This document shows positions 3,342-63,637 of a DNA stretch of 64,000 nucleotides, one piece after another. Source of the DNA: a virus; the IMG/VR virus record IMGVR_UViG_3300036770_008729, positions 157,359 to 221,358 of that record, one strand, 5' to 3'. Every line of letters starts with the position of its first letter. The first letter of the stretch is position 1. The position numbers and the translations under genes are program-made. Below the pieces are notes generated by a model. It was not told where the DNA came from. It did no database searches and was given only the letters and a program-made list of their open reading frames with translations.

Positions 3342-4130
3342 CTATATATTCCAACTGATTTCTTTTTTATCAGGTGTTGGATAAAGAGATTTTGAATAAA
3401 ATTCCTCAAACACTTCTCTATATTTTACACACCAATCTTCGATGTTTGGTATATTAAGTTCTACCATTTTCTTTCCCAATCCAGTTGCCATATAAGCTTG
3501 CATCTCATCAGACAGAACATGGTCAGCATATCCATAATCAATAATACACTTGTACATCATTTCTCTTACTTGTGGTTCACATTTTGAAGTTAGAGAATCC
3601 ATTGATTGTTTATAATCAGGTAGTGTGAAATACATAGCGTGCGCAAACTCATGTTCTAACAGAGCATTATCTAACTCATCAACACCAAGTATGTAATAGT
3701 TATGTTCACCTTCAACTTCTTTGATAGTATTGATAATAGAAATCATTTTCTTATCATAAGTGTTCATCTCATCTTCTGGAACATTCATCATACAATCTTC
3801 TAAAATAGTAGATGGTATATTGAAACCAGACCAATCAGCACCATAAGTAAACTCTTGTTTACCGTAATGTTGTTTGTAAAGGTCTTGAAATCTAGAAAAC
3901 TTAAATTGTTTTTTAACAATTTCATCAAATATACTTTCGTAGAACTCTTGAGCTCTTAAAAATAACATTGCTCTTGAATGTGAGTCAGTAACTTTCACTG
4001 CCCAAATATGGTCTCCAACATGATACAATTCTATTGATTGTAAATGTTTTTTCATATCTAATGGAAGTAATCGACTTGGATCAGTGATTAGTTCCTCTAA
4101 AAATAGTTTGTACGATTTAATTATTTTCAC
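3342..4130 (-). CDS. Tagged zincin-like metalloprotease candidate
   Basis: The protein starts with the shared tag MKIIKSYKLFLEE, which resembles the T4 capsid-targeting sequence. A zinc-metalloprotease motif, LLEHEFAHAMYF (HExxH), lies at about residues 157-168, and an acidic DEMQAY about 45 residues later could supply the third ligand of a gluzincin. No secretion signal is present. It is the last gene of a minus-strand run with 4153, 4566 and 5621, all of which also carry the tag. Inference: packaged in the head and injected, or active in head maturation. The family is not otherwise recognised. Confidence 0.6.
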   Translation of the reverse strand: MKIIKSYKLFLEELITDPSRLLPLDMKKHLQSIELYHVGDHIWAVKVTDSHSRAMLFLRAQEFYESIFDEIVKKQFKFSRFQDLYKQHYGKQEFTYGADWSGFNIPSTILEDCMMNVPEDEMNTYDKKMISIINTIKEVEGEHNYYILGVDELDNALLEHEFAHAMYFTLPDYKQSMDSLTSKCEPQVREMMYKCIIDYGYADHVLSDEMQAYMATGLGKKMVELNIPNIEDWCVKYREVFEEFYSKSLYPTPDKKEISWNI

Positions 4131-4152
4131 GTGTGATAAATTAATTTTTTAG

Positions 4153-4554
4153 TTACTTATCATTTTTCATAGATTTCATAACCTCTGAATTAGATTTAGA
4201 AATTAGATTCTGAATCTCCTTAACTTCTTCAATATTTAGTACATCTTTTAGACCATCAAACAGTTCTTTCTTTTTGGAATCTGTAGGATTCTTGTTAAAA
4301 TCTTTAGCTAAATCTTTCAAATGTTTAAATTTTTCAGATTTTTTAAGTTTATTCCTAATTCTAAGCATCTTTGGTATATTTGAGAATAATTCTTTAAGCA
4401 TTGTTCTCATACTTTTTGACTTAATCAAAACTATAGCAGTTGCTGTGAGTGATAATCCAAAAAGTGAACCAAATACTATAGCGGCTACATACAATATATC
4501 GGAAATGGATTCATTTACTGGTTCAAAGTTTTCGAACTGTTTTAAGTGTTTCAT
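4153..4554 (-). CDS. Tagged small membrane protein
   Basis: 133 residues. The N-terminus MKHLKQFENFEPVNES fits the shared tag with a possible V-N-E|S cleavage site. One strong membrane segment follows (ISDILYVAAIVFGSLFGLSL and onward, about 17-46), then a basic, helical C-terminal half. Function unknown. It lies 12 nt downstream of 4566 and 22 nt upstream of 3342 in one transcription unit. The combination of a head-targeting-like tag and a hydrophobic helix is unusual and could suit a protein that inserts into the host envelope during injection (inference). Confidence 0.55.
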   Translation of the reverse strand: MKHLKQFENFEPVNESISDILYVAAIVFGSLFGLSLTATAIVLIKSKSMRTMLKELFSNIPKMLRIRNKLKKSEKFKHLKDLAKDFNKNPTDSKKKELFDGLKDVLNIEEVKEIQNLISKSNSEVMKSMKNDK

Positions 4555-4565
4555 AATTTTCTATT

Positions 4566-5624
4566 TTAATTTTTAAGGGAATATAATTTTAGTATCTTTT
4601 TTTGTATTCTTTGTCCTGATGAATTAACTCTATCTTGAACAAATTGAAGAAACTTATCGATTGACATCTTTCTTATATCAACACCTTTAATTGAAGGTGC
4701 ATCCACAAGCTCAATTACTGAGGTTTCTCTAGATTGGTCTAATTGATTAGCTAATCCGTTTTTCATTCTATTTAGAATAATTTCAGGGTTCACATCTGGG
4801 TAAAAACTGTTTATTAAATCAGACATTTGTTTTTTGAAATCCACAGCATTAAAATCTATCATTCTTTGTGCAAATGTCCAAGTAGGACATTTAGATTTCA
4901 ATTCTTCTACATGATACTTCTTAACATAAGGCCAAGCATCTTGAACCATTGCATTCATTTCATGTTTTTCAGACCAGTATAAGTAGTAACCTATTTTATC
5001 TGACCAGGCTTTGAAAATTTCTTTTTTTATTCTACTTCTATTTGCCTCTAGTGACCAAGTAACATCAGTTGATAATTGACCAGCTCCATTAATCATTCTT
5101 CTATAATTTTCATATCCGTGATTTAATTCGTGTAGAGTAGCTGATTCCATTTCTAGTAGTAGATCTTCTATTTCATTGAAACTTTCATTGATTAGAAACC
5201 CTATTTCCATATTAAGAAATATACTGTGGTCGGTTCTTTCATCAACAGCTGGTTCAATATAGGAAGAATCTTCTGTTTTTTCCTTTTCAATACTTGAGCA
5301 AAATCCATTTGTGGTGAAGTTTTTAATTTTAGAAGTTACTGGAAATTCTTTTGTGAATTGTTCATCAGTTCTTCTACTAAAATTGAAACCTATATTGAGT
5401 GTTGAAACTGGAAGACTAATCCAGTTATTAGTTGAAAAGATTTTTGTAACTTTTGTTATGTCTACTTTTTCAACTTTTTTATATGTTTGTTCAGTTGTAT
5501 TTAGAAATTCGTCTAAATGTTTTTGTGCTAACTCCATAATGAAATCAGAGTAAAGTAAGGTTGGTTCGGCTAAACCAACTGCCTCTTTTATTAAAAATCC
5601 GTTGAATCGTTTGATATATCTCAT
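4566..5624 (-). CDS. Tagged HExxH metalloprotease-like protein
   Basis: 352 residues beginning with the shared tag MRYIKRFNGFLIKEA; the L-I-K-E|A stretch looks like a T4 gp21-type cut site. A zinc-binding HExxH motif is in SATLHELNHGYENYRR (about residues 181-196). The rest is not recognised. The stop of 5621 overlaps its start (ATGA type), so the two are probably co-translated. It is the second HExxH protein in this tagged cluster. Possible roles are cleavage of host proteins after injection or of phage head proteins; nothing in the sequence decides between them. Confidence 0.6.
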   Translation of the reverse strand: MRYIKRFNGFLIKEAVGLAEPTLLYSDFIMELAQKHLDEFLNTTEQTYKKVEKVDITKVTKIFSTNNWISLPVSTLNIGFNFSRRTDEQFTKEFPVTSKIKNFTTNGFCSSIEKEKTEDSSYIEPAVDERTDHSIFLNMEIGFLINESFNEIEDLLLEMESATLHELNHGYENYRRMINGAGQLSTDVTWSLEANRSRIKKEIFKAWSDKIGYYLYWSEKHEMNAMVQDAWPYVKKYHVEELKSKCPTWTFAQRMIDFNAVDFKKQMSDLINSFYPDVNPEIILNRMKNGLANQLDQSRETSVIELVDAPSIKGVDIRKMSIDKFLQFVQDRVNSSGQRIQKKILKLYSLKN

Positions 5625-6115
5625 ATTGTAAAATAAATTAACATTTTTAAGGGTTTGTATTCTGGATGACTTGCTACAAGATCAAAGTTTACCTCATAAC
5701 CGGATGAAGATAATCTCGAATTAGCAGTAACTATATCACTAAACTTTTTTATACCATTTGAATCCATTACTTGATAAGTATCTTGAACAGCTCTATATCC
5801 AATTTTTTTATTGGAAACTGGAAGTTTCATATTTGCAATTATACAGATTGTTGCATTTTCAACTTTAAAAAGTTCAATCCTGTTTTTGATTTGAGAAACA
5901 CAATAAGAAAACCATCTCTCGAAATCTCCCACTTTTGGATTGAAGGTTAGTCCACCTCCTTTAGATTCTTCACCAGCTAACACTATAGAATAGTTGTTTA
6001 GAATACCATCATCTTCAAATTCAATGAGTATATCTCTAATTTCAGAGAACTTACCTTCGATGATACTTTCGAAGTTATCAACATTTTCATTAAATTTTGA
6101 CCAGTTTTTAAGCAT
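5621..6115 (-). CDS. Tagged protein of unknown function
   Basis: I place the start at 6115 rather than at an upstream ATG at 6148, because this gives the tag-like N-terminus MLKNWSKFNENVDNF and puts a TAATATATA element exactly 4 nt before the ATG, as for several other genes here. The remaining 150 residues are a mixed alpha/beta protein without a recognised motif. It is the first gene of a four-gene minus-strand run of tagged proteins. Confidence 0.55.
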   Translation of the reverse strand: MLKNWSKFNENVDNFESIIEGKFSEIRDILIEFEDDGILNNYSIVLAGEESKGGGLTFNPKVGDFERWFSYCVSQIKNRIELFKVENATICIIANMKLPVSNKKIGYRAVQDTYQVMDSNGIKKFSDIVTANSRLSSSGYEVNFDLVASHPEYKPLKMLIYFTI

Positions 6116-6116
6116 A

Positions 6117-6131: not shown

Positions 6132-6476
6132 ATGAAACTCGAAATCAACGAAATCTATCATAATTATATCATCAGAGTTGTTATTTTTTCAATTTTCTTA
6201 TATAAGAGAATGATAAAAACACCAAATGCTTATAAGTTGGCAGTTAATTCTTTTATAAAAAAAAGATTACCGTGGAAAATCAATTTGATTATTGATACCG
6301 GCATAAAATTAGATAAAGATGACGAGCGTGAGATTTTACTTAATGAATTACTTGAAGGAATAGAATCTGATTATTTAAGCACAATTACAATTACTTTTAC
6401 TACACCACTTAAAGATACGACTATGCAAATTGATTTAAAAGATGAAAATAAGTATTCGGAGTATCTTTATCTTTAA
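6132..6476 (+). CDS. Hypothetical protein
   Basis: A 114-residue protein, divergent from the tagged gene at 6115 and sharing its palindromic promoter-like element. The first third is hydrophobic and basic, with a short possible membrane segment (YIIRVVIFSIFLY); the rest contains INLIIDTGIKL and an acidic stretch. No family is recognised. An internal ATG at residue 27 (MIKTPNAYK) could be the true start, but the promoter position favours the first. Confidence 0.5.
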   Translation: MKLEINEIYHNYIIRVVIFSIFLYKRMIKTPNAYKLAVNSFIKKRLPWKINLIIDTGIKLDKDDEREILLNELLEGIESDYLSTITITFTTPLKDTTMQIDLKDENKYSEYLYL

Positions 6477-6513: not shown

Positions 6514-7350
6514 ATGAAATTTTTAAAATCATATTCTAAATTTAGACTAATCAAAGAAGAGTTAGTATCTTCAACACAAAAAATAAACTGGGGTGTGGGT
6601 GAATTTGAAGTTAAAGAATTATTCAGGATATTCAATGACTTAAGAGATGAACTACCGGAAGAATTTATTATCGGAGGTGAGAAATTCCATATAGATAAAT
6701 CAATATTTGGAGAAGTAGGAAAGGCGATGGATTTTGAGCCAGAAGAGTTTGAACCACAATGTGAAGATAAATCCGGAAAACCAACTAATCCGAGTAATGA
6801 ACCAGTAACTTCCAACGACTTATTAAAGATGAAGAAATTTCATTTAAAGAAAGGTAGTGTGGAAGTTGATGCAACTAAATACTATGATTTCATCAAATTT
6901 GCTAGAAAATTATTCTGGACAGGAACTCCGTATCAAATGACCGAGGATGATGTTGAGAAATTAGCAAATGATTCTAACGAAATTGGAAGAGCTGGGTTTG
7001 ATGAGTATAGAAAAGATAGTGATAACTATACTAAAATGAAGTTTTCATATGAAAAGATTATGGACTTCTTAAAAGAAAAAGGATCCGAAGATCGTTTTAA
7101 CACTTCAGGAGTATTTAAAGATTTTCCAGATATAGATAAAGAAGCTTACCAATTAGCAGTGTCGTATAAAGGCTACGCAAGTGGCTCTTTCGATCACTTT
7201 GATAAAGCTATTGAAAAGGGTGAAAAAATGCCACTTAGTTCTATTATTGAAATCAACGGTAAATGGTATTTAGTTGGTGGTAATAGAAGAATGTCTTACT
7301 ATTGTTTAAGTAAGATAAATCCAGTAGTTTGGAAAATTAAATTAAAATAA
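6514..7350 (+). CDS. Tagged ParB-like domain protein
   Basis: 278 residues. N-terminal tag MKFLKSYSKFRLIKEEL with a likely L-I-K-E|E cut site. Near the C-terminus, IIEINGKWYLVGGNRRMSYY resembles the G-x-[HN]-R core of the ParB/sulfiredoxin fold, as in phage ParB-like proteins. The middle is acidic and helical. The gene has its own TAATATATA element 4 nt upstream. Inference: a head-targeted, possibly DNA- or nucleotide-acting protein delivered with the genome. The substrate cannot be told from the sequence. Confidence 0.55.
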   Translation: MKFLKSYSKFRLIKEELVSSTQKINWGVGEFEVKELFRIFNDLRDELPEEFIIGGEKFHIDKSIFGEVGKAMDFEPEEFEPQCEDKSGKPTNPSNEPVTSNDLLKMKKFHLKKGSVEVDATKYYDFIKFARKLFWTGTPYQMTEDDVEKLANDSNEIGRAGFDEYRKDSDNYTKMKFSYEKIMDFLKEKGSEDRFNTSGVFKDFPDIDKEAYQLAVSYKGYASGSFDHFDKAIEKGEKMPLSSIIEINGKWYLVGGNRRMSYYCLSKINPVVWKIKLK

Positions 7351-7419: not shown

Positions 7420-8109
7420 CTAATAATTATACTCAAAATAAACCATTGCTTTTTGATACTGTAAATCATAACCTTCGAATCCAAAGAAGTCACAAACAAT
7501 CTCAAACTTATCATCATACCAAGCCTCAGAGTTCAATTCACCATCATAAGCATATGATGCAAAATCAACTCGCATCATTCCATCTTCATAATCTATATCT
7601 CTTACTGCAATTCCAAATTCCTCTATTTTTTCTCTTAACTCATCCTCACTTGGAAGTTTGAATTCTTCTTCTAAATCAACATCTGGTTTCTCAAAAATAT
7701 ATTCTATTCTAACTATTCCAACTTCTTTAGCTGTTGCGGATCTGTTGGAGTTTAATTTCACATCAACCAAAGTCCAACCTAAATCACCAAGTCTTCCGAT
7801 ACTAGTATTCATTTCGGTCATCAAATCGAGTGCCTCAGTATATTTCTTATATTTTGGTCCAAAAGAAAGAGTAATCTTAAATTTGCTGATGATTTTATTA
7901 CCACCTTTAATAACTGGCTTAAAATTATTGTATTTTGCATTCTTTTCAGAATAGTCCGAATATGACATATCACCAGATGATGAACTGAATACAATCTTAA
8001 TACCATCATCAATAAAATCAATTACCGTTTCAACTATATCATCAACAACTGATGGATCCGGTTGAAAACTCTCATTAATAAAATTGTTAAATTTTCTGAC
8101 AAATCTCAT
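7420..8109 (-). CDS. Tagged protein of unknown function
   Basis: 229 residues starting MRFVRKFNNFINESF, a clear copy of the shared tag with a possible I-N-E|S cut site. The body looks like two alpha/beta modules, with an acidic C-terminal half (about 150-229). No catalytic motif is seen. It converges on 6514 and is monocistronic, with a TAATATATA element 6 nt upstream. Confidence 0.6.
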   Translation of the reverse strand: MRFVRKFNNFINESFQPDPSVVDDIVETVIDFIDDGIKIVFSSSSGDMSYSDYSEKNAKYNNFKPVIKGGNKIISKFKITLSFGPKYKKYTEALDLMTEMNTSIGRLGDLGWTLVDVKLNSNRSATAKEVGIVRIEYIFEKPDVDLEEEFKLPSEDELREKIEEFGIAVRDIDYEDGMMRVDFASYAYDGELNSEAWYDDKFEIVCDFFGFEGYDLQYQKAMVYFEYNY

Positions 8110-13946: not shown

Positions 13947-15056
13947 TTATTTTCCTTCTTCTGCACCCATTATCTTTTCAAGTTCAGCTATTTTATCTTT
14001 ATTCTTTTCATCACTTATAAAATCAACAAAACTTGCAACCTTTTTGATATCATCAGGTTTTTTGGTTTTCAACTCACCAAGTTTTTTTACTAAGTCTTCT
14101 TGACCTTCTGCTTTAGCTTCTCCAAACTTGTACTCAGGAACTTCCTTATCATCCACTGTGATCTTTTCTAAGTTTCCAGTTTCGTATTCTTTTAATGGAT
14201 CTGGTTGTTCATTTCTTAATATATCAGTCATTTTTGCCTTTTCGCCCTTTTTAACTGTTCCAGCAATTTTAACTAAAACTTTTTCACCTTCTTTCACGAC
14301 AAGTTTCTTACTACCAGATTTAGTGACTTGTAAAAATCCAGGATGTTTTTTCTCATCTTCTCCTGAAACTGGGCTTAACTCAACTTCAACATCACCCCAA
14401 TCTAATACGATTTTAGGACCTCCTCCACCACCTTCTATTTTGTTATCAGTCATGTACTTTTCTTCTGCAGCTTTAAAAGCTTTTTCGTCATTAATTGTTT
14501 TCTTAAAATTATCTGCAATTTGTTTTACTTCAGCAACCGCAACTGCTTTCTTAGCCGCTAAATCTTTTGCTGCTGCGAACTTTACATCGAATTCTGCTTT
14601 AGCCTTTCCAGCAATATCCTTTAACATACCAATAGCAACTCTGGCTCCAATCATAGTTTCTTTAACGCCTTCATTTATTAATTGACCATTCACCGAAACT
14701 GATTCTTTAACTGCTTTAATTTCCTTATCAAATTCAACCACCTTCTCATCAATTTCTTTTCTAAAAGCATCTTTGATTTGATTAATTGCATTTTCATCTT
14801 CAGCCTTATTGATATTATCAGTAGCAGATTTAAGAATTGTTTCAACTGTAGTTGTCATTTTCTTTTTTAGTTCTTCTACCTTCATACCTTTCTTAAAGTC
14901 ATCCTTAAGGGATTTGAATGGTGCGGTTATATTTCCTAGAAAGTTTTTTAATGCTCCTTTAGCTGCTGCTAAAAGTCCACCAATGAACTCTTCATTAACT
15001 GGTTCATCTATTTTTCTCTTTTCTAGAAACGTTTCATATTTTTGAATTCTTTTCAT
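13947..15056 (-). CDS. Tagged Lys/Glu-rich coiled-coil head-type protein
   Basis: 369 residues. N-terminal tag MKRIQKYETFLEKRKIDEP, with possible cut sites such as P-V-N-E|E. The body is a long Ala/Lys/Glu-rich helical region (about 30-215) followed by a Gly-rich joint (EGGGGG), a small beta domain (about 215-290) and a charged C-terminus. Composition and tag resemble T4 internal or prohead-core proteins. It has its own TAATATATA elements upstream and a terminator downstream, so it is expressed alone, probably strongly and late. Confidence 0.6.
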   Translation of the reverse strand: MKRIQKYETFLEKRKIDEPVNEEFIGGLLAAAKGALKNFLGNITAPFKSLKDDFKKGMKVEELKKKMTTTVETILKSATDNINKAEDENAINQIKDAFRKEIDEKVVEFDKEIKAVKESVSVNGQLINEGVKETMIGARVAIGMLKDIAGKAKAEFDVKFAAAKDLAAKKAVAVAEVKQIADNFKKTINDEKAFKAAEEKYMTDNKIEGGGGGPKIVLDWGDVEVELSPVSGEDEKKHPGFLQVTKSGSKKLVVKEGEKVLVKIAGTVKKGEKAKMTDILRNEQPDPLKEYETGNLEKITVDDKEVPEYKFGEAKAEGQEDLVKKLGELKTKKPDDIKKVASFVDFISDEKNKDKIAELEKIMGAEEGK

Positions 15057-15187: not shown

Positions 15188-15661
15188 ATGAATCAATTTT
15201 TAGAAAATGTAAAAGAATTTCACACTACATTTAATGCACCTGTTCTAGATACTCCTCAAATACCATCTGAAGAAAGATGCAAATTAAGAGTATCTCTCTT
15301 ACAAGAAGAATTAAATGAATTGCAAGATGCAATTAAAAATAATGACCTGATTGAAATTGCAGATGCACTCTGTGATTTACAATATGTCTTATCAGGTGCT
15401 GTTTTAGAGTTTGGACTTGGTGAAAAGTTCACTGAACTATTCAATGAGGTTCAAAGAAGTAATATGAGTAAAGCATGTAAAAATATGCAAGAAGCTTTAT
15501 CAACACTCTCACATTATAAACAAAAAGACGGAACCGAAGGATACTACAAAGAGGTAAATGGTATGTATATCGTTTATAGAAACGGAGACAACAAAGTATT
15601 AAAATCAGTGAATTATTCACCAGCTAACCTTAAAAATAAACTAATAAATGAAAATATTTAA
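15188..15661 (+). CDS. MazG-like NTP pyrophosphohydrolase
   Basis: 157 residues. The metal-binding helices of the MazG/HisE all-alpha fold are visible: LLQEELNELQDAI and EIADALCDLQYVLSG. These enzymes hydrolyse (d)NTPs to NMP and pyrophosphate, cleaning the pool or lowering alarmone-type signals. The C-terminal 50 residues are an added beta extension. It overlaps the start of prs by 14 nt and opens a metabolic operon that has no TAATATATA element. Confidence 0.8.
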   Translation: MNQFLENVKEFHTTFNAPVLDTPQIPSEERCKLRVSLLQEELNELQDAIKNNDLIEIADALCDLQYVLSGAVLEFGLGEKFTELFNEVQRSNMSKACKNMQEALSTLSHYKQKDGTEGYYKEVNGMYIVYRNGDNKVLKSVNYSPANLKNKLINENI

Positions 15662-22643: not shown

Positions 22644-23195
22644 TTAATATTCCAAATCCTGGTCTCCTAATTGTTCTAATTTTTGTTTTAACTCTCTATA
22701 ATTATTCAAATCCTCATCAATATCTATTATTGAAACAACATTATCTCCTTTTCTACCTGGTAAAACCGTGATGATATTTATGAAATAATTTATTCCTTTA
22801 TTTTTATTTAAGTCAAATTCCATAATAATTGAGATATTTCTTTCTCTTGAATAAATACTATATCTTCCTGTTTTGAATAGTTCTTTACCACATTTGTCTG
22901 GAAATATTACATTAAAAACTTCGGTAATAAATTCTACAAAATGTTCAACACTGGTAAAGGAAGTTCTCTCTTTGAGTCTTTTAACAATTCCATGTTTAGC
23001 AGTATCATACCAATCAATCCTTAGTTTTTTATTATACCTTAGCATAATTTCAGTTGGAAGTTTATCATTGATATTGAAATCTTCAATAGATGCTTGTTTT
23101 ATTTGATTAGCCAGATCCGAGTCTGATTTACCACTAAGTTTAAGTAAGTCTTTAAGACTTGCCTCTAAGAATAGTTTATACTTTTTAATAATCAT
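22644..23195 (-). CDS. Tagged protein of unknown function
   Basis: 183 residues starting MIIKKYKLFLEASLK, a good copy of the shared tag with an F-L-E|A site. The middle (LRIDWYDTAKHGIVKRLKER) resembles no enzyme I can name. An element TTATATATA, one base off the consensus, lies 4 nt before the ATG. Confidence 0.55.
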   Translation of the reverse strand: MIIKKYKLFLEASLKDLLKLSGKSDSDLANQIKQASIEDFNINDKLPTEIMLRYNKKLRIDWYDTAKHGIVKRLKERTSFTSVEHFVEFITEVFNVIFPDKCGKELFKTGRYSIYSRERNISIIMEFDLNKNKGINYFINIITVLPGRKGDNVVSIIDIDEDLNNYRELKQKLEQLGDQDLEY

Positions 23196-24243: not shown

Positions 24244-25965
24244 TTAAATTGGTCTATTTTTTGAATCTATCGTTCCTTTCTTTATAATATTAACAGATTT
24301 AAGTTGGTTAGATTCAATTGAATCAGAATAATAAGTACCAAGTCTGTCTCTCCAACCACCTCTGACTATAGGAACTTCATCCGACTCAAATAAAATATCT
24401 CCCATTACTGGATCAATTCCAAGTACAGTATTAGGATTATAAGATTTTGGAACCGCAGACTTTGATAATAAAGAATTCATTCTACCAAACTTATTATTAA
24501 CAGTGTTGTTAATGTTATCTTGAGCATTTTTGTGATAATCTTCATTTTTTCTACTTATAAACTGAATATCAACAGAGTGTATATCAGGTATGTTTGATAA
24601 TTCTCTTATTATATCAAGTTTTGGTATTCTATCTGTTCTTGACAGATTAAGAAAATAATCAGATATCTTACTTATTATCTGTGCGTTTACAGTATCATCA
24701 GTAGCATCGGAGTATGCCATAACAAAAACATTTATTATATAAAATGAAAGTTTTGGTGAATCGATTTTATATTTTCTAGTCAACATTAAGTTCCCAGAAG
24801 TTTGAATATACTTTCTAATTTTTGATTTTTCGTAGTCATCAAGATAAAAGGCATCTAAACCTATAGTAAAATAATTGGAATTAGAATTTCTGAAAAGATT
24901 TATGTTGGGAGTTGCTACAATAAATATCGTACCGGTTTGTTCATAAGCATTAACATGTGAGAAAACACCAAGTTTTTTTATCTCATAAGCAAATTGTTGA
25001 GGTAAACCTAAAACAAAATTATTACTAGCTATAGGAAGAATCGATCTTGTAAAAGAAAGTGGCTCTGCGTCTGCACCAAAATTAATATCATTGAATATTT
25101 CTATAGTAAAAACCTTAGCCATATCAACGGTCTCTCCATCTGCATCGACAACATCATCCAAAAACTTCCAATCATTAACAGTTCTTCGAAATATATTACC
25201 AGCCGATCCATTGGTTTGTATGTATCTTATTTCAATATAAGATCCGATACCTGGAATAGCACCGAATCCACCATTTCCAAAAATAACATCAATTCCACCA
25301 CCAAATCCGGTCCTAACCACACAAGCTGTTTCATCCGGTAATAATTCATATAAGTGTTTTTTTATGTCCCATTGCACTCCATTTACATAGACTTCAACAT
25401 TGAAATTATCAACATCAGTTCCATTTACAATTTCTGTAATATTTATTGTCTGATTTAACACACCAGTTCCGGTTTCAACTCTTGAAACAAGCTGACCTTG
25501 AATTATTGGAATAAAAATAACAGTATCTTGTCTGATATATTCAGTTCTTCTTTCAACTCCCATATTAAAACAATAAGTCAAAGAGTTAGTTAGATTTTGT
25601 ATTCTCAATCTATTAGTATAAGTTATTCTACCACCACCAACTTCTTTTTCCAAGTCAACTTGTCTATTAACTGTTAATCTAATAGTGCCTGTTGCGCTTA
25701 TCGCTCTTCCTGGTATGTGTCCTGCTAAAATAGCAGCATTTCTTATAGCTCTTGGATTTGCAGAATTTGCATCACTAAGATCCATAACTTGTAAAGCATT
25801 CTTTAAGTAAAGAAAAGACAAAGAATGGAAATTCTCAAGAACTGCTAATATTTGACCATAAGGTGAAGCTGGACTATATAAAAGGTTTGCCTTATTATGT
25901 GTTTCTTTTAAATAGTTTTCAACCTCTCTTTTTATGTTAGAAAATAATATACCAGATAGAGCCAT
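24244..25965 (-). CDS. Baseplate wedge protein, J/gp6-like
   Basis: 573 residues. The N-terminus (SGILFSNIKREVENYLKETH ... SPASPYGQILAVLENFHSLS) and the order helical head, beta-rich middle and C-terminal region with RKYIQTSGNLMLTRKYKI and PKLDIIRELSNIPDIHSVDI resemble baseplate J / T4 gp6-type wedge proteins. In contractile tails these form the ring around the central hub. The assignment rests on pattern recognition and context. Downstream is a small gene 2 nt away; upstream is 25973. Confidence 0.6.
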   Translation of the reverse strand: MALSGILFSNIKREVENYLKETHNKANLLYSPASPYGQILAVLENFHSLSFLYLKNALQVMDLSDANSANPRAIRNAAILAGHIPGRAISATGTIRLTVNRQVDLEKEVGGGRITYTNRLRIQNLTNSLTYCFNMGVERRTEYIRQDTVIFIPIIQGQLVSRVETGTGVLNQTINITEIVNGTDVDNFNVEVYVNGVQWDIKKHLYELLPDETACVVRTGFGGGIDVIFGNGGFGAIPGIGSYIEIRYIQTNGSAGNIFRRTVNDWKFLDDVVDADGETVDMAKVFTIEIFNDINFGADAEPLSFTRSILPIASNNFVLGLPQQFAYEIKKLGVFSHVNAYEQTGTIFIVATPNINLFRNSNSNYFTIGLDAFYLDDYEKSKIRKYIQTSGNLMLTRKYKIDSPKLSFYIINVFVMAYSDATDDTVNAQIISKISDYFLNLSRTDRIPKLDIIRELSNIPDIHSVDIQFISRKNEDYHKNAQDNINNTVNNKFGRMNSLLSKSAVPKSYNPNTVLGIDPVMGDILFESDEVPIVRGGWRDRLGTYYSDSIESNQLKSVNIIKKGTIDSKNRPI

Positions 25966-27770: not shown

Positions 27771-28022
27771 TTATCTTTTAGGTATAGGAGTATAGTTTGG
27801 CATTGACCCTTCAAAATTATAATTACCTTTTCTAATTTCTTCATTATCCAATTGACAAGATGCATCATACTCTGGATCTTTCTTCTCATCATCTTTACAA
27901 CTCATACAAATAGTGTCTAGGTTAAATTTAGAAGTTGTAGTAACACCATCGGTTCTTCCGTGACATCTATCACAAAATGCCTTGTTCATTGTAAATGATT
28001 CAAACTTTTTTATATGATTCAT
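27771..28022 (-). CDS. Tagged zinc-ribbon protein
   Basis: 83 residues. The shared tag MNHIKKFESFTMNK is joined to a small zinc-ribbon protein, AFCDRCHGRTDGVTTTSKFN ... ICMSCKDDEKKDPEYD ... EEIRKGNYNFEGS. The second part is a family known from bacteria and phages without such an extension (C-x2-C, C-x2-C, KGNYNFEG). The protein therefore shows the tag as an added module. Function unknown. A TAATATATA element lies exactly 4 nt upstream. Confidence 0.7.
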   Translation of the reverse strand: MNHIKKFESFTMNKAFCDRCHGRTDGVTTTSKFNLDTICMSCKDDEKKDPEYDASCQLDNEEIRKGNYNFEGSMPNYTPIPKR

Positions 28023-29962: not shown

Positions 29963-30469
29963 TTACTTCTTAATAACACTAAAATCATTTCTTAAATAAT
30001 CATCAAAGTTCATCACTCTCTTTTTTGTATTATCTGTCTGTCCTTGACCTGCTGTAAAGTCTTGTCTTTTAGAAAAAATATCTTTCAGTGATTTTAAACT
30101 AATTCTTTTTTTTCTTGATTTCTTACCAGTTCTTGGTCCGTGATTAGAACCCATTTCTGTTGGGATTTTCTGAAACACTCTATTTGCACCACTTGGATTA
30201 TAGGGTATCGAAACATCACCTGATCCAACAGTTCCACCTTGTGATGCCCAATTAGGACCAATAGTTGCGCCTGCAAGTCCAGATGGTTGTGAATTAACAA
30301 CAGCACCCATACCACCAGGACTAATACCACCAGTAGCTGAGGTATCTTCTAGTATTTCATATTCTTTGAAATTTATTAATTCCATGACTTTTTCAAGTAA
30401 TATAAAATTCTTCTCTTTTTTGAGTTTCCATTTTAAATCATATAATTCAAAAAGTGATAAATTTTTCAT
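29963..30469 (-). CDS. Probable virion protein
   Basis: 168 residues. The start MKNLSLFELYDLKWKLKKEK is only weakly like the shared tag. The middle is Gly/Ser/Pro-rich and likely disordered (GGISPGGMGAVVNSQPSGLA), followed by a basic stretch (RTGKKSRKKRISLK). I believe similar sequences occur in other large phages without known function. It has a TAATATATA element exactly 4 nt upstream and is directly before the CHAP gene. Confidence 0.5.
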   Translation of the reverse strand: MKNLSLFELYDLKWKLKKEKNFILLEKVMELINFKEYEILEDTSATGGISPGGMGAVVNSQPSGLAGATIGPNWASQGGTVGSGDVSIPYNPSGANRVFQKIPTEMGSNHGPRTGKKSRKKRISLKSLKDIFSKRQDFTAGQGQTDNTKKRVMNFDDYLRNDFSVIKK

Positions 30470-30538: not shown

Positions 30539-31213
30539 ATGGATAGAATAAAAAAACTCGAAAATATAAAATTGATGAAAGAGTTAGATTTTATAGAATC
30601 CGAGTTCAATTACAAAAATGAAGTAATATGTGAAGCTGATACAAGCTTTCTTAAAACCGTCAATGCTTATCTAGATATTCATCCAGAATTAAAAAAACTT
30701 TTTGACGAAAAGATTAACAGAAAGATAGAGGAAATGTTACAGAAAAAAACACAAGAGGAAAATGATCAATCAGAAAGTGAATTGGCCAACGATGAATTTG
30801 ACTTGGCTACAGAATTACATTCTGAACAGCAAGAAGAAAAAGAAGAAATTGTTCAGAATGAAGAAAATTCAACAGATTTTCGAAATGAAAAGTTAAAAAA
30901 ACTTTACAGAGAGATTGCTAAACTAACACATCCAGATAAAGTTAAAAATAATAAATTAAATTCTCTCTATCTTAAAGCCACATCATTTTATGATGAAAAT
31001 AACATTTTTGGTATTTATGCAATTTGCAATGAACTCGAAATATATTACGAAATAGACGAAAATGATAATGTTTTTTTGGTTGAAAAAATAAGCAACCTAA
31101 AACAAAGAATTAGTTTTTTAGAATCAACTTTTACTTGGAAGTGGAAACACACGGATGATTCAAAAGAAAGAGAGACTATAATAATAAGATATATTTCATC
31201 ACAATTATCTTAA
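30539..31213 (+). CDS. J-domain-like (DnaJ-type) protein
   Basis: 224 residues. The C-terminal half has LKKLYREIAKLTHPDKVKNN, with the HPD motif that stimulates Hsp70/DnaK, and a following helix (LYLKATSFYDENN). The N-terminal half is a charged, Glu-rich coiled coil. Inference: recruits host DnaK for phage folding or assembly. It is isolated on the plus strand; its stop overlaps the end of the convergent tagged gene. Confidence 0.7.
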   Translation: MDRIKKLENIKLMKELDFIESEFNYKNEVICEADTSFLKTVNAYLDIHPELKKLFDEKINRKIEEMLQKKTQEENDQSESELANDEFDLATELHSEQQEEKEEIVQNEENSTDFRNEKLKKLYREIAKLTHPDKVKNNKLNSLYLKATSFYDENNIFGIYAICNELEIYYEIDENDNVFLVEKISNLKQRISFLESTFTWKWKHTDDSKERETIIIRYISSQLS

Positions 31214-31878
31214 CTTACGTTTATCTTAACATTTCTTGTATTAATCAATTCTTCTAGTTCATCTTTTCTAAATATCTTTTTGAAATATTCATTTTCTTTT
31301 TTTGGATCTACTAATTCCCATTCATTACCGTTTGAAGTTTGATATTCATATTTTTCATTTCCATCTTCTATTTGTATATTTTTAGAAGATAGCTTTGAAT
31401 AAAAGTTATTTATGTTTTCTAAAGCTTCATAAAGTTCAATATCAGACCAACCCTGTGATATGACTTCACCATTTTTATCTTTAATCTCATCCCAGTATTG
31501 AAATAGTAGATAGATTGGGTTGATTGGTGGATTTGGAATAGTCTCTATATCAAAGGCCTCAGATCCATGAATAAACATAAATTTACAAGGCTTATTAATA
31601 AATGTTTGAAAGTCATCAGTATATTGTATGGGAGAAAGTCTCAATTTTATCGAGGTTAATGCATTAATAAAATCAGTTTTCTTTGCTAAGTCCTCTAAAT
31701 CAATTTTAACAGAAAAGTCGGATTTTGGTAAATTAAACTTATCGTGAAAATCCAATCTATTCATAGAAGATAATAGATCGTTCTTAAATACAGTCAATGA
31801 TTCAGAAAGGTCAAATTGATTAAAAAAATCAATATTCAATGATTCCGAAAACTTTTTATATGATTTGATGTATCTCAT
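31210..31878 (-). CDS. Tagged protein of unknown function
   Basis: 222 residues starting MRYIKSYKKFSESLN, a clear shared tag with an F-S-E|S site. The body is mixed alpha/beta without recognised motifs. It is divergent from another tagged gene (31930) and shares a symmetrical promoter-like palindrome with it. Confidence 0.6.
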   Translation of the reverse strand: MRYIKSYKKFSESLNIDFFNQFDLSESLTVFKNDLLSSMNRLDFHDKFNLPKSDFSVKIDLEDLAKKTDFINALTSIKLRLSPIQYTDDFQTFINKPCKFMFIHGSEAFDIETIPNPPINPIYLLFQYWDEIKDKNGEVISQGWSDIELYEALENINNFYSKLSSKNIQIEDGNEKYEYQTSNGNEWELVDPKKENEYFKKIFRKDELEELINTRNVKINVS

Positions 31879-31929: not shown

Positions 31930-33315
31930 ATGAAGTGGCTCAGAAACTATCAATTATATAAAGAATCTAAAAGTGATACATACTCTAGTAAAAGCCTAAT
32001 TCATGAAGTATGTGTTAGTATGGTTCTGTTAAATAATCAATTTTTAGATAACATTCTAGATAGAGGATTAAAAGCTAGATACTCAGAAAACTCTCAAATA
32101 TTTTTAACCGATCTTAAGAATCTTGTATTGGCTAAAAATAGATTGAATTTAGGTAAGTTCATAGAAGGTGATAAGTGTGTAGTAGATGATGAGGTATCAA
32201 AAATAAACATTCTTTTCGATGGATTAAAATTTTCAATAGAGGAAGATTGGGATAAATTAGTTAACGCAAGAATAACTGCAAGAAACATTATAGATAAACT
32301 ACTACCTGATGAAAAATTAGAATCAGATAAAATAAAAACAATATATTGGGTAGGACCAAATAAAGATAAGGAACACCAAGAAGATATTGTTTTAGAAACA
32401 TTAGATGGTAAACAATATTCTTTTTATTTAGATAAAAACCTTTCAAATCAAAAAACAGCTTCTTTTAATCTATTTGCTGATGATTTAATTGGTAAAGACA
32501 TAGAAAAACTTTATAGTGAAGAATATTTAAATAAATGGGACAAACTTACTCAACAATGGATAACAACACTCTATGAGAATTCTAACAAAAATATTCAAAT
32601 GCATATTGAGAAGTTCATCGACCCAAAAAGAATTGATACTTTAGGTTATTTTGAATACTTCGATATAAGACATCAGGATCCACGATTTAAGCATTTGGGA
32701 GAATTTATAAAAGAATTCAATAAAAATATTCTTAAATTTTCAGATTTAATGAATGAAATTTGGAAAAATAGAGATGTTTGTTTTTTAGATTCTGATAGAG
32801 TTTACAAAGAATGGATGGAAACAAAAGTAGTCATACTAAACTCTAAAATTCTTGAAAACTTAATAACATCATCACTAAAAACTAATTTTGCAGATGACAT
32901 TCAGAAAGTTGAAAATAACTTTAAGTTAGCAGGAGGAACTGTAAAAATGAAACTTTTCAAGACTCTAGTTGAAAAGATGGGATGTTTAGAAAGACCAATT
33001 TACTTTTTAGGAAATAACGGCAATTCTTTTCATTTAATACCACAGAGAAACTTTTTTAGAGATAATTATGACGATTTAAATATAAAATTTGATTATCATG
33101 TGAATTTCTCTGTAAGTGAAGAAGAAGAGAATAACGATTTTATAATTAGAATTATTCTAGAATTAGAAGATGAAGTTCTTATAAAAATGAATATAAATGT
33201 CAAATTTACTGGTGGTGAAATGTCTGGTAAATTATCAGCAAAATACAGATACGAATTATCCGATAGTTTCAACTACATAGTATCTAAAAAACTTACAGAA
33301 AATAAATCTGAGTAA
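31930..33315 (+). CDS. Tagged large protein of unknown function
   Basis: 461 residues starting MKWLRNYQLYKESKSDT, the shared tag with a Y-K-E|S site. A stretch EDIVLETLDGKQYSFYLDKN could be the beta-hairpin core of a restriction-endonuclease-like fold, but I see no full catalytic set. The C-terminus is beta-rich (LEDEVLIKMNINVKFTGGEM). Divergent partner of 31878. Candidate injected effector. Confidence 0.5.
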   Translation: MKWLRNYQLYKESKSDTYSSKSLIHEVCVSMVLLNNQFLDNILDRGLKARYSENSQIFLTDLKNLVLAKNRLNLGKFIEGDKCVVDDEVSKINILFDGLKFSIEEDWDKLVNARITARNIIDKLLPDEKLESDKIKTIYWVGPNKDKEHQEDIVLETLDGKQYSFYLDKNLSNQKTASFNLFADDLIGKDIEKLYSEEYLNKWDKLTQQWITTLYENSNKNIQMHIEKFIDPKRIDTLGYFEYFDIRHQDPRFKHLGEFIKEFNKNILKFSDLMNEIWKNRDVCFLDSDRVYKEWMETKVVILNSKILENLITSSLKTNFADDIQKVENNFKLAGGTVKMKLFKTLVEKMGCLERPIYFLGNNGNSFHLIPQRNFFRDNYDDLNIKFDYHVNFSVSEEEENNDFIIRIILELEDEVLIKMNINVKFTGGEMSGKLSAKYRYELSDSFNYIVSKKLTENKSE

Positions 33316-56869: not shown

Positions 56870-57550
56870 TTATTTACTTTTTCTAAAAGATTCGAAGTTT
56901 TTAACCCATTTTTTAGATTCTGTTGTAGACATTGATTTAACTATACCTTCAAGCTCTAACAAAGTCTTTTTATAATCAGTGTGTAAGATTGCAGTTCCAC
57001 CAGCCGATGTAAACTTCTCAACATATTTAGGTCTATCATCAATTAATATGTCTGTTTTACCTTCAGCAGCTTTACCTTTATCAACTGTTATAATTACTTG
57101 GTCAACCATTCCTTCAAAATGTTCTTTTACCCAATCTTTCTTTTCAATAACAGATGGATTATTCAAATCATTTTCATCACCAACAGGCGCTGATAATATA
57201 TTAGGTAATTTGCCAGTCAATTCCGCAGCCTTAGCAACCATTTCTTTTGCACCAGGCATTAGTGGTAAGTTTCTATAGAAACCAGGTTTTGCAGCTATAC
57301 TAAAGACTTTAGAAGTATATTTATTGAAAGACTTTTTAAGCTCTTTAACTGGACTATTTGGATCTTTTTCTAATTCTGCCTTGAATTTAGTTTTGATATC
57401 ATCATCAACTAATCCTTTGTAGTCTTGAAACTTGGTTTCAATTAGATTGTCTAAATCGGCTCTTAGTTGTATTATCTCTGGATTTTTTTTAAGACCACCA
57501 TCCATATCGGCTAAAACGCCATCTAAGTCAAAAAATATTCTTGTTTCCAT
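56870..57550 (-). CDS. HAD 5'(3')-nucleotidase-like protein
   Basis: 226 residues. Motif I RIFFDLDGVLADMDGG, substrate loop PLMPGAKEMVAKAAE, motif II NILSAPVGDE, late motif DILIDDRPKYVEKFTSAGG. It resembles NT5C-type deoxynucleotidases. The last residues (KKWVKNFESFRKSK) look like the shared N-terminal tag, but placed at the C-terminus. Start overlaps the stop of the 2H gene by 1 nt. Confidence 0.75.
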   Translation of the reverse strand: METRIFFDLDGVLADMDGGLKKNPEIIQLRADLDNLIETKFQDYKGLVDDDIKTKFKAELEKDPNSPVKELKKSFNKYTSKVFSIAAKPGFYRNLPLMPGAKEMVAKAAELTGKLPNILSAPVGDENDLNNPSVIEKKDWVKEHFEGMVDQVIITVDKGKAAEGKTDILIDDRPKYVEKFTSAGGTAILHTDYKKTLLELEGIVKSMSTTESKKWVKNFESFRKSK

Positions 57551-58050
57551 TATTTAAAATCTTCTTTTTTAATATCACCAATTGAGCCAAATGAATCAGC
57601 AAATCCAGGTGTTTTTTTATTCTCCACATTATTTGCAATAGTTATATGAAAATATCTTTCTGACTCAGGATTAGTTAAACCAAGTTGTTCATAGATTGAA
57701 TCTACAAAAGATTTTATCTCTTCTTGATTTTGAACCGCAACTACAAAACTTTTCTTTCCTTTTTCTGGTCTTTCCGCAAAGGTTGTTTGGCCTAATACAA
57801 TTTTAGGCATTTCCATTTTTGGAAGTCCTTCTTTAAGTTTATCTTTATTTTGTTTACAGTTAGCTATAGAAGTTAAGGTTATATGCAACTTATCTTCAGC
57901 TAAAGGAAAATAAGACTTAGCTTCTTCATTTCCCTCATAAATATTTTTAATTTCGGATTTAGTTGTGTTATCTAACTTTAGAAGAAGAGCCGCCTCAAAA
58001 ACTATACAATTATCACCTGTAAAATCTTCATATAATTTTAAATATTTCAT
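57550..58050 (-). CDS. Tagged 2H phosphoesterase
   Basis: 166 residues. The shared tag MKYLKLYEDFTGDN is followed by a 2H phosphoesterase core with both catalytic motifs, KLHITLTSI (about residue 57) and YFHITIANNVE (about 140). 2H enzymes hydrolyse cyclic or 2',3'-cyclic nucleotides; the T4 anti-CBASS protein Acb1 has this fold. I infer a head-packaged enzyme that could destroy defence signals at once on infection, though RNA end processing is also possible. Promoter-like element 18 nt upstream. Confidence 0.75.
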   Translation of the reverse strand: MKYLKLYEDFTGDNCIVFEAALLLKLDNTTKSEIKNIYEGNEEAKSYFPLAEDKLHITLTSIANCKQNKDKLKEGLPKMEMPKIVLGQTTFAERPEKGKKSFVVAVQNQEEIKSFVDSIYEQLGLTNPESERYFHITIANNVENKKTPGFADSFGSIGDIKKEDFK

Positions 58051-60306: not shown

Positions 60307-62001
60307 ATGAAATGGATTAAAACTAGAAAACAATTTTTGATAGAAGCTATCGAGGATGAAATATTCCCTAGACAAGCTGAAGCGATTAAAAGGACTTGGG
60401 GTGAAAAATATTTAAAAATGACCAAGCCTCCTGTATCAAATGAACTTAAAAAATATGAAGGTAAATGGAAATTATCCGAAGAAGATAAATTAAAAATGCT
60501 AGGATCCTTCTTTCAATGTGATATGAAGGTCATTTTTGATAATATTGCTAGTTTACCAGATAAGTTTTGTTATACGATTGCTCAATCAATTAGTATTCCA
60601 CAAACTCCAGAGCCTGAAAAGTATGAAGTAGTTCTAAAAGACTTCAATATGAAAGAACCTTCTATTGACCAAATTGTAGCAATTTTTGATAACATTTTCC
60701 GAAAATTAAATGTTAATGAAACAATTAGTGATTCTATGATTCAAAAAGATGAATCCGGAAGACCAATTAGAGATTCAGAAGGACAGATGGTAAAGGTTGC
60801 AAAAGAAAAAGGATCTCCTATTTTTACTAATAGTTGCACTAACATTACTTCTTTCTGTGATGATTACAACAGATGTTATCCAGATGAAAAAGTAGATACA
60901 AATATTTTCACTGAAAATAATATAAAAAGTTTAAGAAACTTAGCAAAAGAAGATTGTAACGGTAAATTAAAAGTAGATTTTGAAATTTTTAACAAAGATC
61001 TTTACTTATCATTTTCTCACAATGAGAAGGACATATTAAATATGTCTATATCAAAGTTCTACAATTCTTGTCAAAATCTTTATGATGGAGGATACAGAGA
61101 ACAATTATTAGGTAATATATTTGATCCTAACTCAGCTCCAGCATTTATGACATTTGATACTCCTATTTTCTGGGGAGATGAAAAGGTATCAGATCAATTA
61201 CCTCTTTCAAGAACAGTAATAAGAAATATTGAGAATTTTGATGGGTCTAGTCGAGGTATTTTCTTTGATAGAACTTATCCTGATAGATGTGAAAAAGTAT
61301 TCAAAGAGTTATTAGTTAAGTATAGCAAAATGCAACAAACAATAACAGATAGAGATTCTGTTACTTACTTATTTACACCAGACATCGATCCATCAGACAC
61401 AGGAGTTAAAACTCCTTATATGGATAGATTAGGTGTTGATAGAAAACCAATGATTGGAGTAAATTGTAAAGCACTTTACTTATCAAGAGTAGGTGATTGG
61501 TCTGGTATAAAGATTTCACCAAATGCAAAGATTAAAGAATTAGTGGTTGAAACAACCGAAATTCCTCAGAACTTATTTGACCTTAAATTAAACTTAGATT
61601 GGATTAAATTTAAGTATTTACATTTGAAAGATTTAAAACCATTTGGTGGTTTATTCACTGATTCAGTTGCTTTTGATAAATGTAAATTAAAGAATGAAGT
61701 TCTTCAAGAAAGAAAAGAAACTAAGAAGTTACAATTAATCAGTTGTGACATCGATGCGATTGATTTGTCTGGTTTCTCTAAATTAGAAGAGTTACACTTA
61801 TTGTTAACTTTAAAAGATATAGATGAACTTAAAAGAACACTTACAGGAACTAAACTAAAAAAGTTAGTTATCTCTGATGAAATATTAGGATTCTCTAAAA
61901 AAGATAGAAAAATGAGAATGTCTGAAGAAGCTTCTCAATTCATCGAAGGATTAAAAAGAACTGGTGTGTCAGTAGAAATAAAAGGAATTTATAATAAATA
62001 A
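60307..62001 (+). CDS. Tagged large protein with LRR-like end
   Basis: 564 residues starting MKWIKTRKQFLIEAIED, one of the best copies of the tag (L-I-E|A). The middle has an NSCTNITSFCDDYNRCYPDE Cys stretch; the C-terminal part has leucine-rich, repeat-like strands (KKLQLISCDIDAIDLSGFSK-LEELHLLLT). No catalytic motif is recognised. It is 1 nt upstream of another tagged gene. Candidate injected effector. Confidence 0.6.
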   Translation: MKWIKTRKQFLIEAIEDEIFPRQAEAIKRTWGEKYLKMTKPPVSNELKKYEGKWKLSEEDKLKMLGSFFQCDMKVIFDNIASLPDKFCYTIAQSISIPQTPEPEKYEVVLKDFNMKEPSIDQIVAIFDNIFRKLNVNETISDSMIQKDESGRPIRDSEGQMVKVAKEKGSPIFTNSCTNITSFCDDYNRCYPDEKVDTNIFTENNIKSLRNLAKEDCNGKLKVDFEIFNKDLYLSFSHNEKDILNMSISKFYNSCQNLYDGGYREQLLGNIFDPNSAPAFMTFDTPIFWGDEKVSDQLPLSRTVIRNIENFDGSSRGIFFDRTYPDRCEKVFKELLVKYSKMQQTITDRDSVTYLFTPDIDPSDTGVKTPYMDRLGVDRKPMIGVNCKALYLSRVGDWSGIKISPNAKIKELVVETTEIPQNLFDLKLNLDWIKFKYLHLKDLKPFGGLFTDSVAFDKCKLKNEVLQERKETKKLQLISCDIDAIDLSGFSKLEELHLLLTLKDIDELKRTLTGTKLKKLVISDEILGFSKKDRKMRMSEEASQFIEGLKRTGVSVEIKGIYNK

Positions 62002-62002
62002 T

Positions 62003-63637
62003 ATGAAATATCTAAAACTATTTGAAGCTTTCGAATCGACTATATTAAGTAAAACTTTATCTTTCATCAAAGATGAAGAGTCTAAGAAACAATTCATGTT
62101 TGCACTAGACAAGATTTGTTCTACAATTGATTATCCTAAATCTGAGTTAAAAGATGAATACTTTCAATACTTATCATTTTACCCAGCACTTAAACTAAGT
62201 GCTAAAACAGGTGATGAACCTTGTGAAGCTTTATCACGTGATTCTTATCCAGACTATGCAGTTGATGGGGCAAAGTGTAAAGGAGGTAAAGTATTAAGAA
62301 AGTGGGGAGCAAGAACAAGAGAAGTTGAATGTAGTATATGTAAAGGAACTGGTGTTAAACCAAAGAAACCTGAAATTAAGTTAGTTAAGTTTTGGTTTTC
62401 AACAGAAGGTAAATATATTGCTGTTACAGCAGTTGATGGCTTAATAAGAAACACAACGACTTCATCAACCGCGAGAGGGTATTCTAAAGACTATCAAGAT
62501 TATATAGTAGTTAACACCACTGAAGATTCTAGAGAACTACAAACTGGAATGATAGTTAGAGTTACTATTAATGGAAGACCTACTATTTGTTATATTGTTA
62601 AAGATAGAAATACTTATCCATATGCAATACAAGATGAACACAGTGGATCCACACCAGATAACATACCTTCTAGAAACTGGAGGAATTTTGGACATAGTTC
62701 TTGGCACTTATCAAGAGGTGAATACAGAGGAACAATTGAAATACTTGAACCAAAAAGTAAAGAAGAGGTTATTGTAGAACCAAATCCTTATACTTGGAAT
62801 GCAACGCTTAGCTTATCTGGTTATTCAGGTATGAAAGTAGATATTTATTCTGATGTTCAAGAAAAAATTAAGGATGCAAACTTTGCTATTGTTTTAGATT
62901 TCGGTAAGATGAAACAATCAGAATTCAAAACTACTTATTCAACGAGAAGTGAAAGAGAAGAATCTAGAACTGGTGCATTAGCATTAGAGAAACCTGAAGA
63001 TATAAAAGCAACTAACATTGAAAGATATATTAAAAGTTTATCTGATAAAGTTGCAAGTGGAGATGAATTAACAAAAGTAACAAGAGTTATTCCAAGATTA
63101 ATGGGTGGAAGAAATATTTTGCTTTATATTGGTATGAATAGAAATCTTTCAACTATTGATAGTTTAGCTACACGACTTTATAGATTTATTACAGAAGATG
63201 AGGACAATAAAGAATACAATGCAAGAGAAATAGTAGCAACAATAAAAAACTCATACAAACAAAATCTACAATTTACTACTGATTTAAATGAAGTTTTAGA
63301 TGAAGTAAGAAAACAATTACAAAAACCAGGAAAAGAAGCTTATTTATCAACATTTGACAAAATGTTAGAGATATCACAAAAGATAAATGATAAAGTATTT
63401 TCAACAGAAGTTAAATCTATTGAAGATATTGAATACATCTATCAAAAATTGAGGACAATTCAAAATATGTTACAATCCAGTCGTAATCCAGCAAATAGAT
63501 TGAGATACTTTATGGAAAGATTAAGTTATCTAACTACTGATAGATGTGTATCTAGAATTTTAGAAATTGACCAAGATGAAATACCAAGTATAATTGAAGG
63601 TCTAGAATCAATTGGAAGATTTGTTGAGAGAGTTTAA
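62003..63637 (+). CDS. Tagged large protein with zinc-finger-like motif
   Basis: 544 residues starting MKYLKLFEAFESTILS. A DnaJ-type zinc motif half is visible (AKCKGGKVLRKWG ... VECSICKGTGVKPKK, about 90-125). The rest is beta-rich (about 130-290) and then helical with basic residues (about 330-540). No enzyme signature. Immediately follows the tagged 60307 gene, so both are made together. Confidence 0.6.
   Translation: MKYLKLFEAFESTILSKTLSFIKDEESKKQFMFALDKICSTIDYPKSELKDEYFQYLSFYPALKLSAKTGDEPCEALSRDSYPDYAVDGAKCKGGKVLRKWGARTREVECSICKGTGVKPKKPEIKLVKFWFSTEGKYIAVTAVDGLIRNTTTSSTARGYSKDYQDYIVVNTTEDSRELQTGMIVRVTINGRPTICYIVKDRNTYPYAIQDEHSGSTPDNIPSRNWRNFGHSSWHLSRGEYRGTIEILEPKSKEEVIVEPNPYTWNATLSLSGYSGMKVDIYSDVQEKIKDANFAIVLDFGKMKQSEFKTTYSTRSEREESRTGALALEKPEDIKATNIERYIKSLSDKVASGDELTKVTRVIPRLMGGRNILLYIGMNRNLSTIDSLATRLYRFITEDEDNKEYNAREIVATIKNSYKQNLQFTTDLNEVLDEVRKQLQKPGKEAYLSTFDKMLEISQKINDKVFSTEVKSIEDIEYIYQKLRTIQNMLQSSRNPANRLRYFMERLSYLTTDRCVSRILEIDQDEIPSIIEGLESIGRFVERV

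Follow-up and report, generated by a model that had tools for sequence, protein, structure and literature searches.

A shared N-terminal tag on unrelated proteins of a putative huge-phage fragment: a probable capsid-targeting propeptide

Tagged genes of the window

The 64-kb stretch of viral DNA analysed here (the window; positions 157,359-221,358 within the 281,114-base virus record IMGVR_UViG_3300036770_008729, referred to as G000) has a GC content of 0.30 and carries, among its approximately 88 open reading frames (ORFs), 14 genes whose products begin with variants of one short peptide, which we call the tag. The initial annotation of this DNA had listed at least 15 such genes. Our reading of the ORFs bears out the 14 that were firmly listed, each of which starts with M-[KR]-x-[IL]-[KR]-x-[FY]-x-x-[FY] or a close, recognisable variant; the fifteenth, at 29963 and listed as a weak copy, proved not to be one (see below). 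Genes are named here by their low coordinate, so that minus-strand genes have the tag at the high end, and a slash marks the putative cleavage point. Scans of the tagged window proteins against PHROG and Pfam mostly gave no match.

The first of these genes (3342..4130, minus strand, 262 aa) has a GTG start and reads MKIIKSYKLFLEELITDP; its body holds an invariant HEFAH-type HExxH motif and has untagged homologs in other phages. Beside it, also on the minus strand, are 4153..4554 (133 aa; MKHLKQFENFEPVNE/SISD), with a hydrophobic segment past the site; 4566..5624 (352 aa; MRYIKRFNGFLIKE/AVGLAE), which has a HELNH motif and in whose orthologs the conserved body begins right after the E; and 5621..6115 (164 aa), which bears the variant tag MLKNWSKFNENVD and whose start we corrected to an internal ATG (5621-6115, MLKNWSKFNENVDNFES) from a TTG at 6148. 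The genes at 6514..7350 (plus strand, 278 aa; MKFLKSYSKFRLIKE/EL) and 7420..8109 (minus strand, 229 aa; MRFVRKFNNFINE/SF) both have the element AATATATA, considered below, upstream. Next on the minus strand are 13947..15056 (369 aa; MKRIQKYETFLEKRKIDEPVNE/EFIGGLL), whose start resembles, by eye, the VNE/E(LL)GGL of tagged proteins in the phages LR756502 and LR745206, and 22644..23195 (183 aa; MIIKKYKLFLE/ASL).

At 27771..28022 (minus strand) a tag-like N-terminus without an E site, MNHIKKFESFTMNK, sits on the C-terminal domain of phrog_27033 (residues 140-205 of 208, with CxxC pairs). The genes at 31210..31878 (minus strand, 222 aa; MRYIKSYKKFSE/SL) and 31930..33315 (plus strand, 461 aa; MKWLRNYQLYKE/SK) have tagged orthologs in both of these ~640-kb relatives, with 73-75% identity for the second. 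The remaining three are 57550..58050 (minus strand, 166 aa; MKYLKLYEDFTGDNCIVFE/AALLLK), with HITLT and HITIA motifs; 60307..62001 (plus strand, 564 aa), with the variant tag MKWIKTRKQFLIE/AIED that has R at position 7 (MKWIKTRKQFLIEA), AATATATA upstream and a C-terminal half that is leucine-rich by eye; and 62003..63637 (plus strand, 544 aa; MKYLKLFEAFE/ST), of which stretch L132 has two adjacent tagged homologs.

Distribution and form of the tag

Chance can be excluded as the origin of the tag on two counts. A DNA pattern for the tag, run over the whole 281-kb record as the initial annotation had proposed, gave 24 matches against 0 for a reversed control pattern; and the 261 ORFs covered in G000 (176 kb of the record) include 44 strict tags (45 by search pattern, which takes in 29963), where shuffled N-termini give an expectation of 0.11. 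With the variants at 5621 and 60307 there are 46 tagged genes in these 176 kb. The 64-kb window is the only unbiased sample among them; the other stretches of G000 were picked around tag matches and their counts are thus biased upward.

To place the phage we used its baseplate wedge protein (phrog_219; 24244..25965, minus strand), which is 62% identical to its counterparts in the uncultured phages LR756502 (642 kb) and LR745206 (635 kb), with more distant kin in other huge phages, Lak phages, Tenacibaculum and Chryseobacterium phages and Sphingomonas phage PAU. We therefore take G000 to be probably one piece of a huge-phage genome akin to those of ~640 kb, and its host is likely to be a member of the Bacteroidota. 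The sampled parts of LR756502 and LR745206 hold 62 and 34 strict tags respectively. The DNA pattern found 35 matches (control 1) in LR756502, 24 (control 0) in LR745206, 12 (control 0) in LR756504 and 13 (control 0) in LR756500; it was near background in the Lak phages and in the 735-kb LR756501, which may carry diverged forms of the tag such as MNNVITTYDEFLNEE.

The strict form MKY[ILM]KxFExF was found in at least 114 viral-contig stretches, on at least 99 distinct ORFs of 60 aa or longer that fall into at least 75 body families. In a collection of 84,980 genomes of bacteria and archaea the same form has only 16 matches, 6 of them on ORFs of at least 60 aa. Finding this N-terminus in ordinary host proteins had been named at the outset as a refutation, and we reject the view that the tag is an ordinary host N-terminus.

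The tag, of which MKYIKLFEQFINEA is an example, has a hydrophobic rhythm of every three residues (M1, I/L4, F/Y7, F/Y10), with lysine at positions 2 and 5. Among the 157 tagged N-termini used for our statistics, position 4 is I or L in 147 and position 7 is F or Y in 152, both positions being partly fixed by the search pattern. There are two main forms, MK[HY][IL]KxYK[IL]FE/S and MK[YH][IL]KxFExF followed by [IV]NE/[SEA], and the tag usually ends in [IL]-x-E/[SAN]. The first E past position 10 has I or L at P3 in 74 of 147 cases (50%, against 15% for E in the bodies; p = 3e-21) and S, A, N or G at P1' in 78 of 147 (53%, against 20%; p = 2e-18), and neither position was fixed by the search pattern. 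A wider motif, [ILVMFY]xE, lies within positions 10-22 of 127 of the 157 N-termini, compared with 82 when shuffled, and some members lack it. We also noted a lone tag start, MKHLKLFK and then a stop codon, in stretch L012 (G000:C1:58873-58902, minus strand), which is possibly a broken tagged gene.

Behind the tag the bodies are as unrelated as had been claimed: body clustering gave as many families in G000 as there are tagged proteins. Signatures that Pfam could name on tagged proteins are a SET domain, an AAA_33 kinase, a polynucleotide kinase phosphatase, a methyltransferase, HNH, LRR and HAD domains and a pterin dehydratase; a nicotinamidase-like family was assigned by motif, and HExxH occurs in four tagged bodies of G000 (3342, 4566, L214:4931 and L216:10828). 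The predicted structure of 3342 is a good model (pLDDT 81.5) in which the tag is disordered, and it matched no solved structure in the PDB; metalloprotease activity is for now a guess from the motif. The protein at 57550 is a probable 2H phosphoesterase: HITLT and HITIA were both found, the Pfam E-value of 0.01 is below the cut-off, and the top 27 fold matches of a low-confidence model are all 2H enzymes, none of them below E 0.001. Anti-defence roles are possible for tagged proteins.

Since homologs without the tag exist, we regard the tag as a module. One clade with the 3342 body is tagged (M[KR]xIKxYKLFLE[KE]L) and another is not (MKLISHTEDL...), and members of phrog_27033 and phrog_6688 have had their N-terminal part replaced by the tag. 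Two tagged proteins have a second tag, complete and in frame, in mid-chain, one kinase-like (L218:14297-15607, minus strand, 436 aa; at residue 260) and one of 304 aa (L221:12664-13578, minus strand; at residue 125); these may be tandem cargo fusions, internal starts or losses of a stop codon.

Head genes and protease sites in relatives

Among the genes of the relatives of G000 are those for a T4-type (gp20-type) portal (Pfam E 1e-57), for a capsid protein of gp23 type (Pfam E 4e-28) and for a protease of S77 type that forms one chain with a long scaffold. With PF03420 (cut-off 27 bits) the proteases of PAU (39.9) and LR756500 (42.6) score above the cut-off and those of LR756502 (20.2) and LR745206 (16.8) below it; the latter two match the head maturation protease phrog_207 at 6e-28 and 4e-30. 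The capsid propeptides of the relatives end in QINE/NAY, SINE/NAY, QIHE/NVG, QMNE/NVG or ELYE/NAY, of the general form [IML]-x-E/N. N-terminal sequencing of the PAU capsid protein has shown that its 585 residues are reduced to 520 on maturation (PMC5646251), and the aligned site ALME/NYQ is no more than one residue away from this published point. The scaffold parts of three protease-scaffold fusions (L059:25273-27372, L060:26547-28670 and L062:20343-22637) contain 10-11 copies of a ~14-aa repeat, Y[IL]AENLDKNIAYSE (Y[IL]AENLDKNI type), each of which holds a protease-type site. In the scaffolds of all four fusions there are 2.8-4.0 sites of the form [ILVM]-x-E for every 100 residues, compared with 0.47 in the tagged bodies.

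In some tagged orthologs, comparison places the boundary between variable tag and conserved body exactly at the E, both in the series FLIKE/AVGLAEPTL, FSINE/AVGLAEATL and FQLNE/KVGLAEPTL and for the body of 57550, where CIVFE/AALLLK has a counterpart LIFE/AALLLK in a relative. Two tagged proteins of ~80 residues run on past the site into the N-arm of the mature capsid protein (SFNE/DATANASTAGMGG... and KFIE/NADGSSTSGMGAV...), and thus the site of the tag aligns with that of the capsid protein.

The protein at 29963..30469 (minus strand), which had been taken for a weak copy of the tag, belongs here instead. Its orthologs start with MKELNLIELYRIKKRI and MKNLPIVELYLIKKRL, on which ground we reject the tag reading; its N-terminal ~80 residues resemble the propeptide and mature N-arm of the relatives' major capsid protein (..ILE/DTSATGG..GMGAVVNSQPSGLAGATIG..GSGDV), and residues 23-93 of the LR756502 capsid protein align with it (E 1.6e-7). 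Copies of the mature N-arm (GMGAVVxxQPxxLAGxTI..GSGDV) that follow a site of [IF]xE type were seen in this and other small proteins (29963-30469, minus strand; L203; L212; L224:10295-10540; L232:5267-5521), which perhaps bind where the capsid arm binds.

In phage PAU (JQ362498) the depositors marked five proteins as 'internal capsid protein', and four of the five carry a related tag, reading MKSLTNLYENKLNE/AS, MKTISKLYEAKLNE/AS, MKGLHNLYEAKLNE/AN and MKSISELYE/AF. An N-terminus of this type (consensus MK[TS][IL]xxLYEAKLNE/A, ending in LNE/A or LYE/A) is found on approximately 21 PAU genes, and its overlap with the 'internal capsid protein' notes has p = 1e-4.

Of 133 tagged genes, 79 have the element AATATATA in the 40 bases upstream, compared with 131 of the 629 other genes (odds ratio 5.6, p = 1e-17), and it often stands some 13-14 bases before the ATG. 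The same element or a close form stands before most of the portal, protease and capsid genes that were checked in LR756502 and LR745206 (L059/L060); in the window it is also found upstream of genes 33385 and 49806, and not before the dihydrofolate reductase, PRPP synthetase and FolD genes. AATATATA is a candidate late promoter of this phage group, and its sharing by tagged and head genes would be compatible with, without being proof of, their late co-expression.

A probable capsid-targeting propeptide and its alternatives

We consider it very probable that the tag acts as a T4-type capsid-targeting propeptide. The core idea of the initial annotation, a T4-like tag with cleavage behind [LI]-x-E, finds good support in the head genes of the relatives, the capsid and scaffold sites, the ortholog boundaries and the PAU notes. 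Internal proteins of T4 are targeted by their first 10 residues, of which 4 and 7 are the most important, and their processing depends on 8 and 10 (PMC9026906); the N-termini of IPII and IPIII read MKTYQEFIAE/A. As the hydrophobic residues are at the same positions and the site is of the same kind, the tag may be expected to work like the T4 capsid-targeting sequence.

The route that we infer comprises scaffold binding, tag cleavage, presence in the virion, ejection and action on the host. Late in infection the tag, with its hydrophobic or aromatic residues at 1, 4, 7 and 10, would bind the scaffold core and carry the cargo into the prohead; there the scaffold-fused S77-type protease would cut after [IL]-x-E and free the cargo, and would also trim the major capsid protein and shred the scaffold at similar sites. 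The cargo would remain in the head with the DNA and would probably be ejected with it.

Several observations weigh against the propeptide interpretation. About 19% of the 157 N-termini have no plausible site in positions 10-22, and the nicotinamidase-like family has no clear E downstream; the wider viral set keeps the P3 enrichment (p = 2e-8) but not that at P1' (p = 0.28). No protease or capsid gene was found in the 281-kb G000, Pfam searches for S77 and gp23 included, so the search for protease and scaffold genes and their sites that had been called for succeeded in the relatives and not in the record itself. We put this down to a head module missing from what is apparently a fragment, and the cleavage site of G000 consequently rests on the relatives. 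The PAU notes, which are indirect support for tagged proteins in the virion, stand in a record that gives no basis for them, and AATATATA is common in AT-rich DNA and also precedes many untagged genes. Lastly, a tag-like MKYLRTYEGF begins a primase fragment (L226:201-770; the middle of phrog_849, 149-337 of 435), for which chance resemblance, a split gene or an odd cargo are the candidates.

Only tentatively, and with somewhat more doubt than belief, do we extend the propeptide interpretation to a general cargo-address system. Such a system would take in some 10-15% of genes, perhaps a hundred proteins per 640-kb genome, each with a head-loading tag that can be exchanged and passes from gene to gene; the virion would be a particle loaded with many proteins for delivery, and what it holds (candidate proteases, nucleotide hydrolases, kinases and methyltransferases) would be ejected before transcription, and some cargo would travel as tandem fusions (L218, L221) that are possibly cut apart in the head. 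The 'arsenal acting before any phage gene is read' that the initial annotation had envisaged is conjectural: most bodies lack an assigned role, a handful have enzyme motifs, and some may be structural.

That last consideration leads to the alternative that survives best, and that we nonetheless think unlikely: the packaged proteins could be mainly structural or scaffold-core components, rather than ejected effectors. The PAU tag is present on the annotated PAU scaffold protein and on neighbouring head genes, and the body of 13947 looks helical and lysine-rich by eye, both of which would suit a structural role. However, the number and variety of the bodies, and their enzyme signatures (kinase, SET, 2H phosphoesterase, HExxH), suit cargo better.

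We find it improbable that the tag is an amphipathic address to somewhere other than the head, for instance the membrane of the host or a compartment in which the phage replicates. Its three-residue hydrophobic periodicity with lysines would suit a membrane as well as a peptide-binding groove, and it is borne by many huge-phage proteins of no assigned role; but such an address would not account for the [IL]-x-E/[SAN] site and the match of that site to those in capsid protein and scaffold, for tagged proteins that run on into the capsid N-arm, for what the PAU depositors noted, or for the presence of AATATATA before head genes too. Still less probable is conservation at the level of DNA or mRNA, in which a regulatory element would span the start codon and the peptide would be its by-product. 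Synonymous variation is slightly low at codons 7 and 9 in LR756502, which hints at recent copying of some tags, but other synonymous positions vary about like background, and conservation is therefore mainly at the protein level; Leu, Ile, Lys and Phe codons are mixed, and the protein pattern is kept in tags with inserted or deleted residues, so that this codon variation leads us to reject a DNA-level element. Descent from a single duplicated family, its bodies diverged past recognition, has next to no probability and is rejected on body clustering and Pfam, for although some tandem tagged paralogs exist (e.g. in LR756500 and L132), the bodies have unrelated folds (SET, polynucleotide kinase phosphatase, pterin dehydratase, methyltransferase, HNH, LRR), the same bodies occur untagged, and in members of phrog_6688 and phrog_27033 the tag stands in place of the N-terminal part.

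Returning to the capsid-targeting propeptide, the closest parallel is that of T4 itself, where IPI, IPII, IPIII and Alt likewise carry a short, MK-initial peptide on unrelated proteins, with hydrophobic residues at 4 and 7 and an [LI]-x-E end, and where portal, S77-type protease and gp23-type capsid protein are of the types seen in the relatives of G000. In contrast to the handful of tagged proteins in T4, there are at least 46 in part of G000, known here from their sequence; the consensus is MKYIKxFExF.. or MKHLKxYKIFE/S, and the protease of the relatives is fused to a repeat scaffold. The PAU internal capsid proteins share related head genes and a related tag, but with a different consensus and in a 219-kb phage. 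The ejection (E) proteins of SPN3US and the inner-body proteins of phiKZ are similar in that a giant-phage head holds many proteins, some of which the prohead protease cuts (PMC10052503, PMC7411985), but the portions of those reports available to us note no common short N-terminal tag on them. A literature search, with most subscription journals and preprints outside its reach, found no description of the tag, and its scale, its consensus and the fused protease-scaffold are new relative to the literature searched.

If the propeptide interpretation is true, dozens of unannotated proteins per huge phage fall into one class of probable virion cargo that is recognisable from sequence. Proteins for early host takeover and for countering defence could then be sought, by a path open to testing, in this lineage of the largest known phages, few members of which have been cultured, and the tag could also serve as a ready-made loader of proteins into very large heads.

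Other genes of the window

Three plus-strand genes, assigned by eye, are PRPP synthetase-like (15648-16592), FolD-like (17563-18468) and dihydrofolate reductase-like (21364-21843), and form a nucleotide/folate metabolism cluster.

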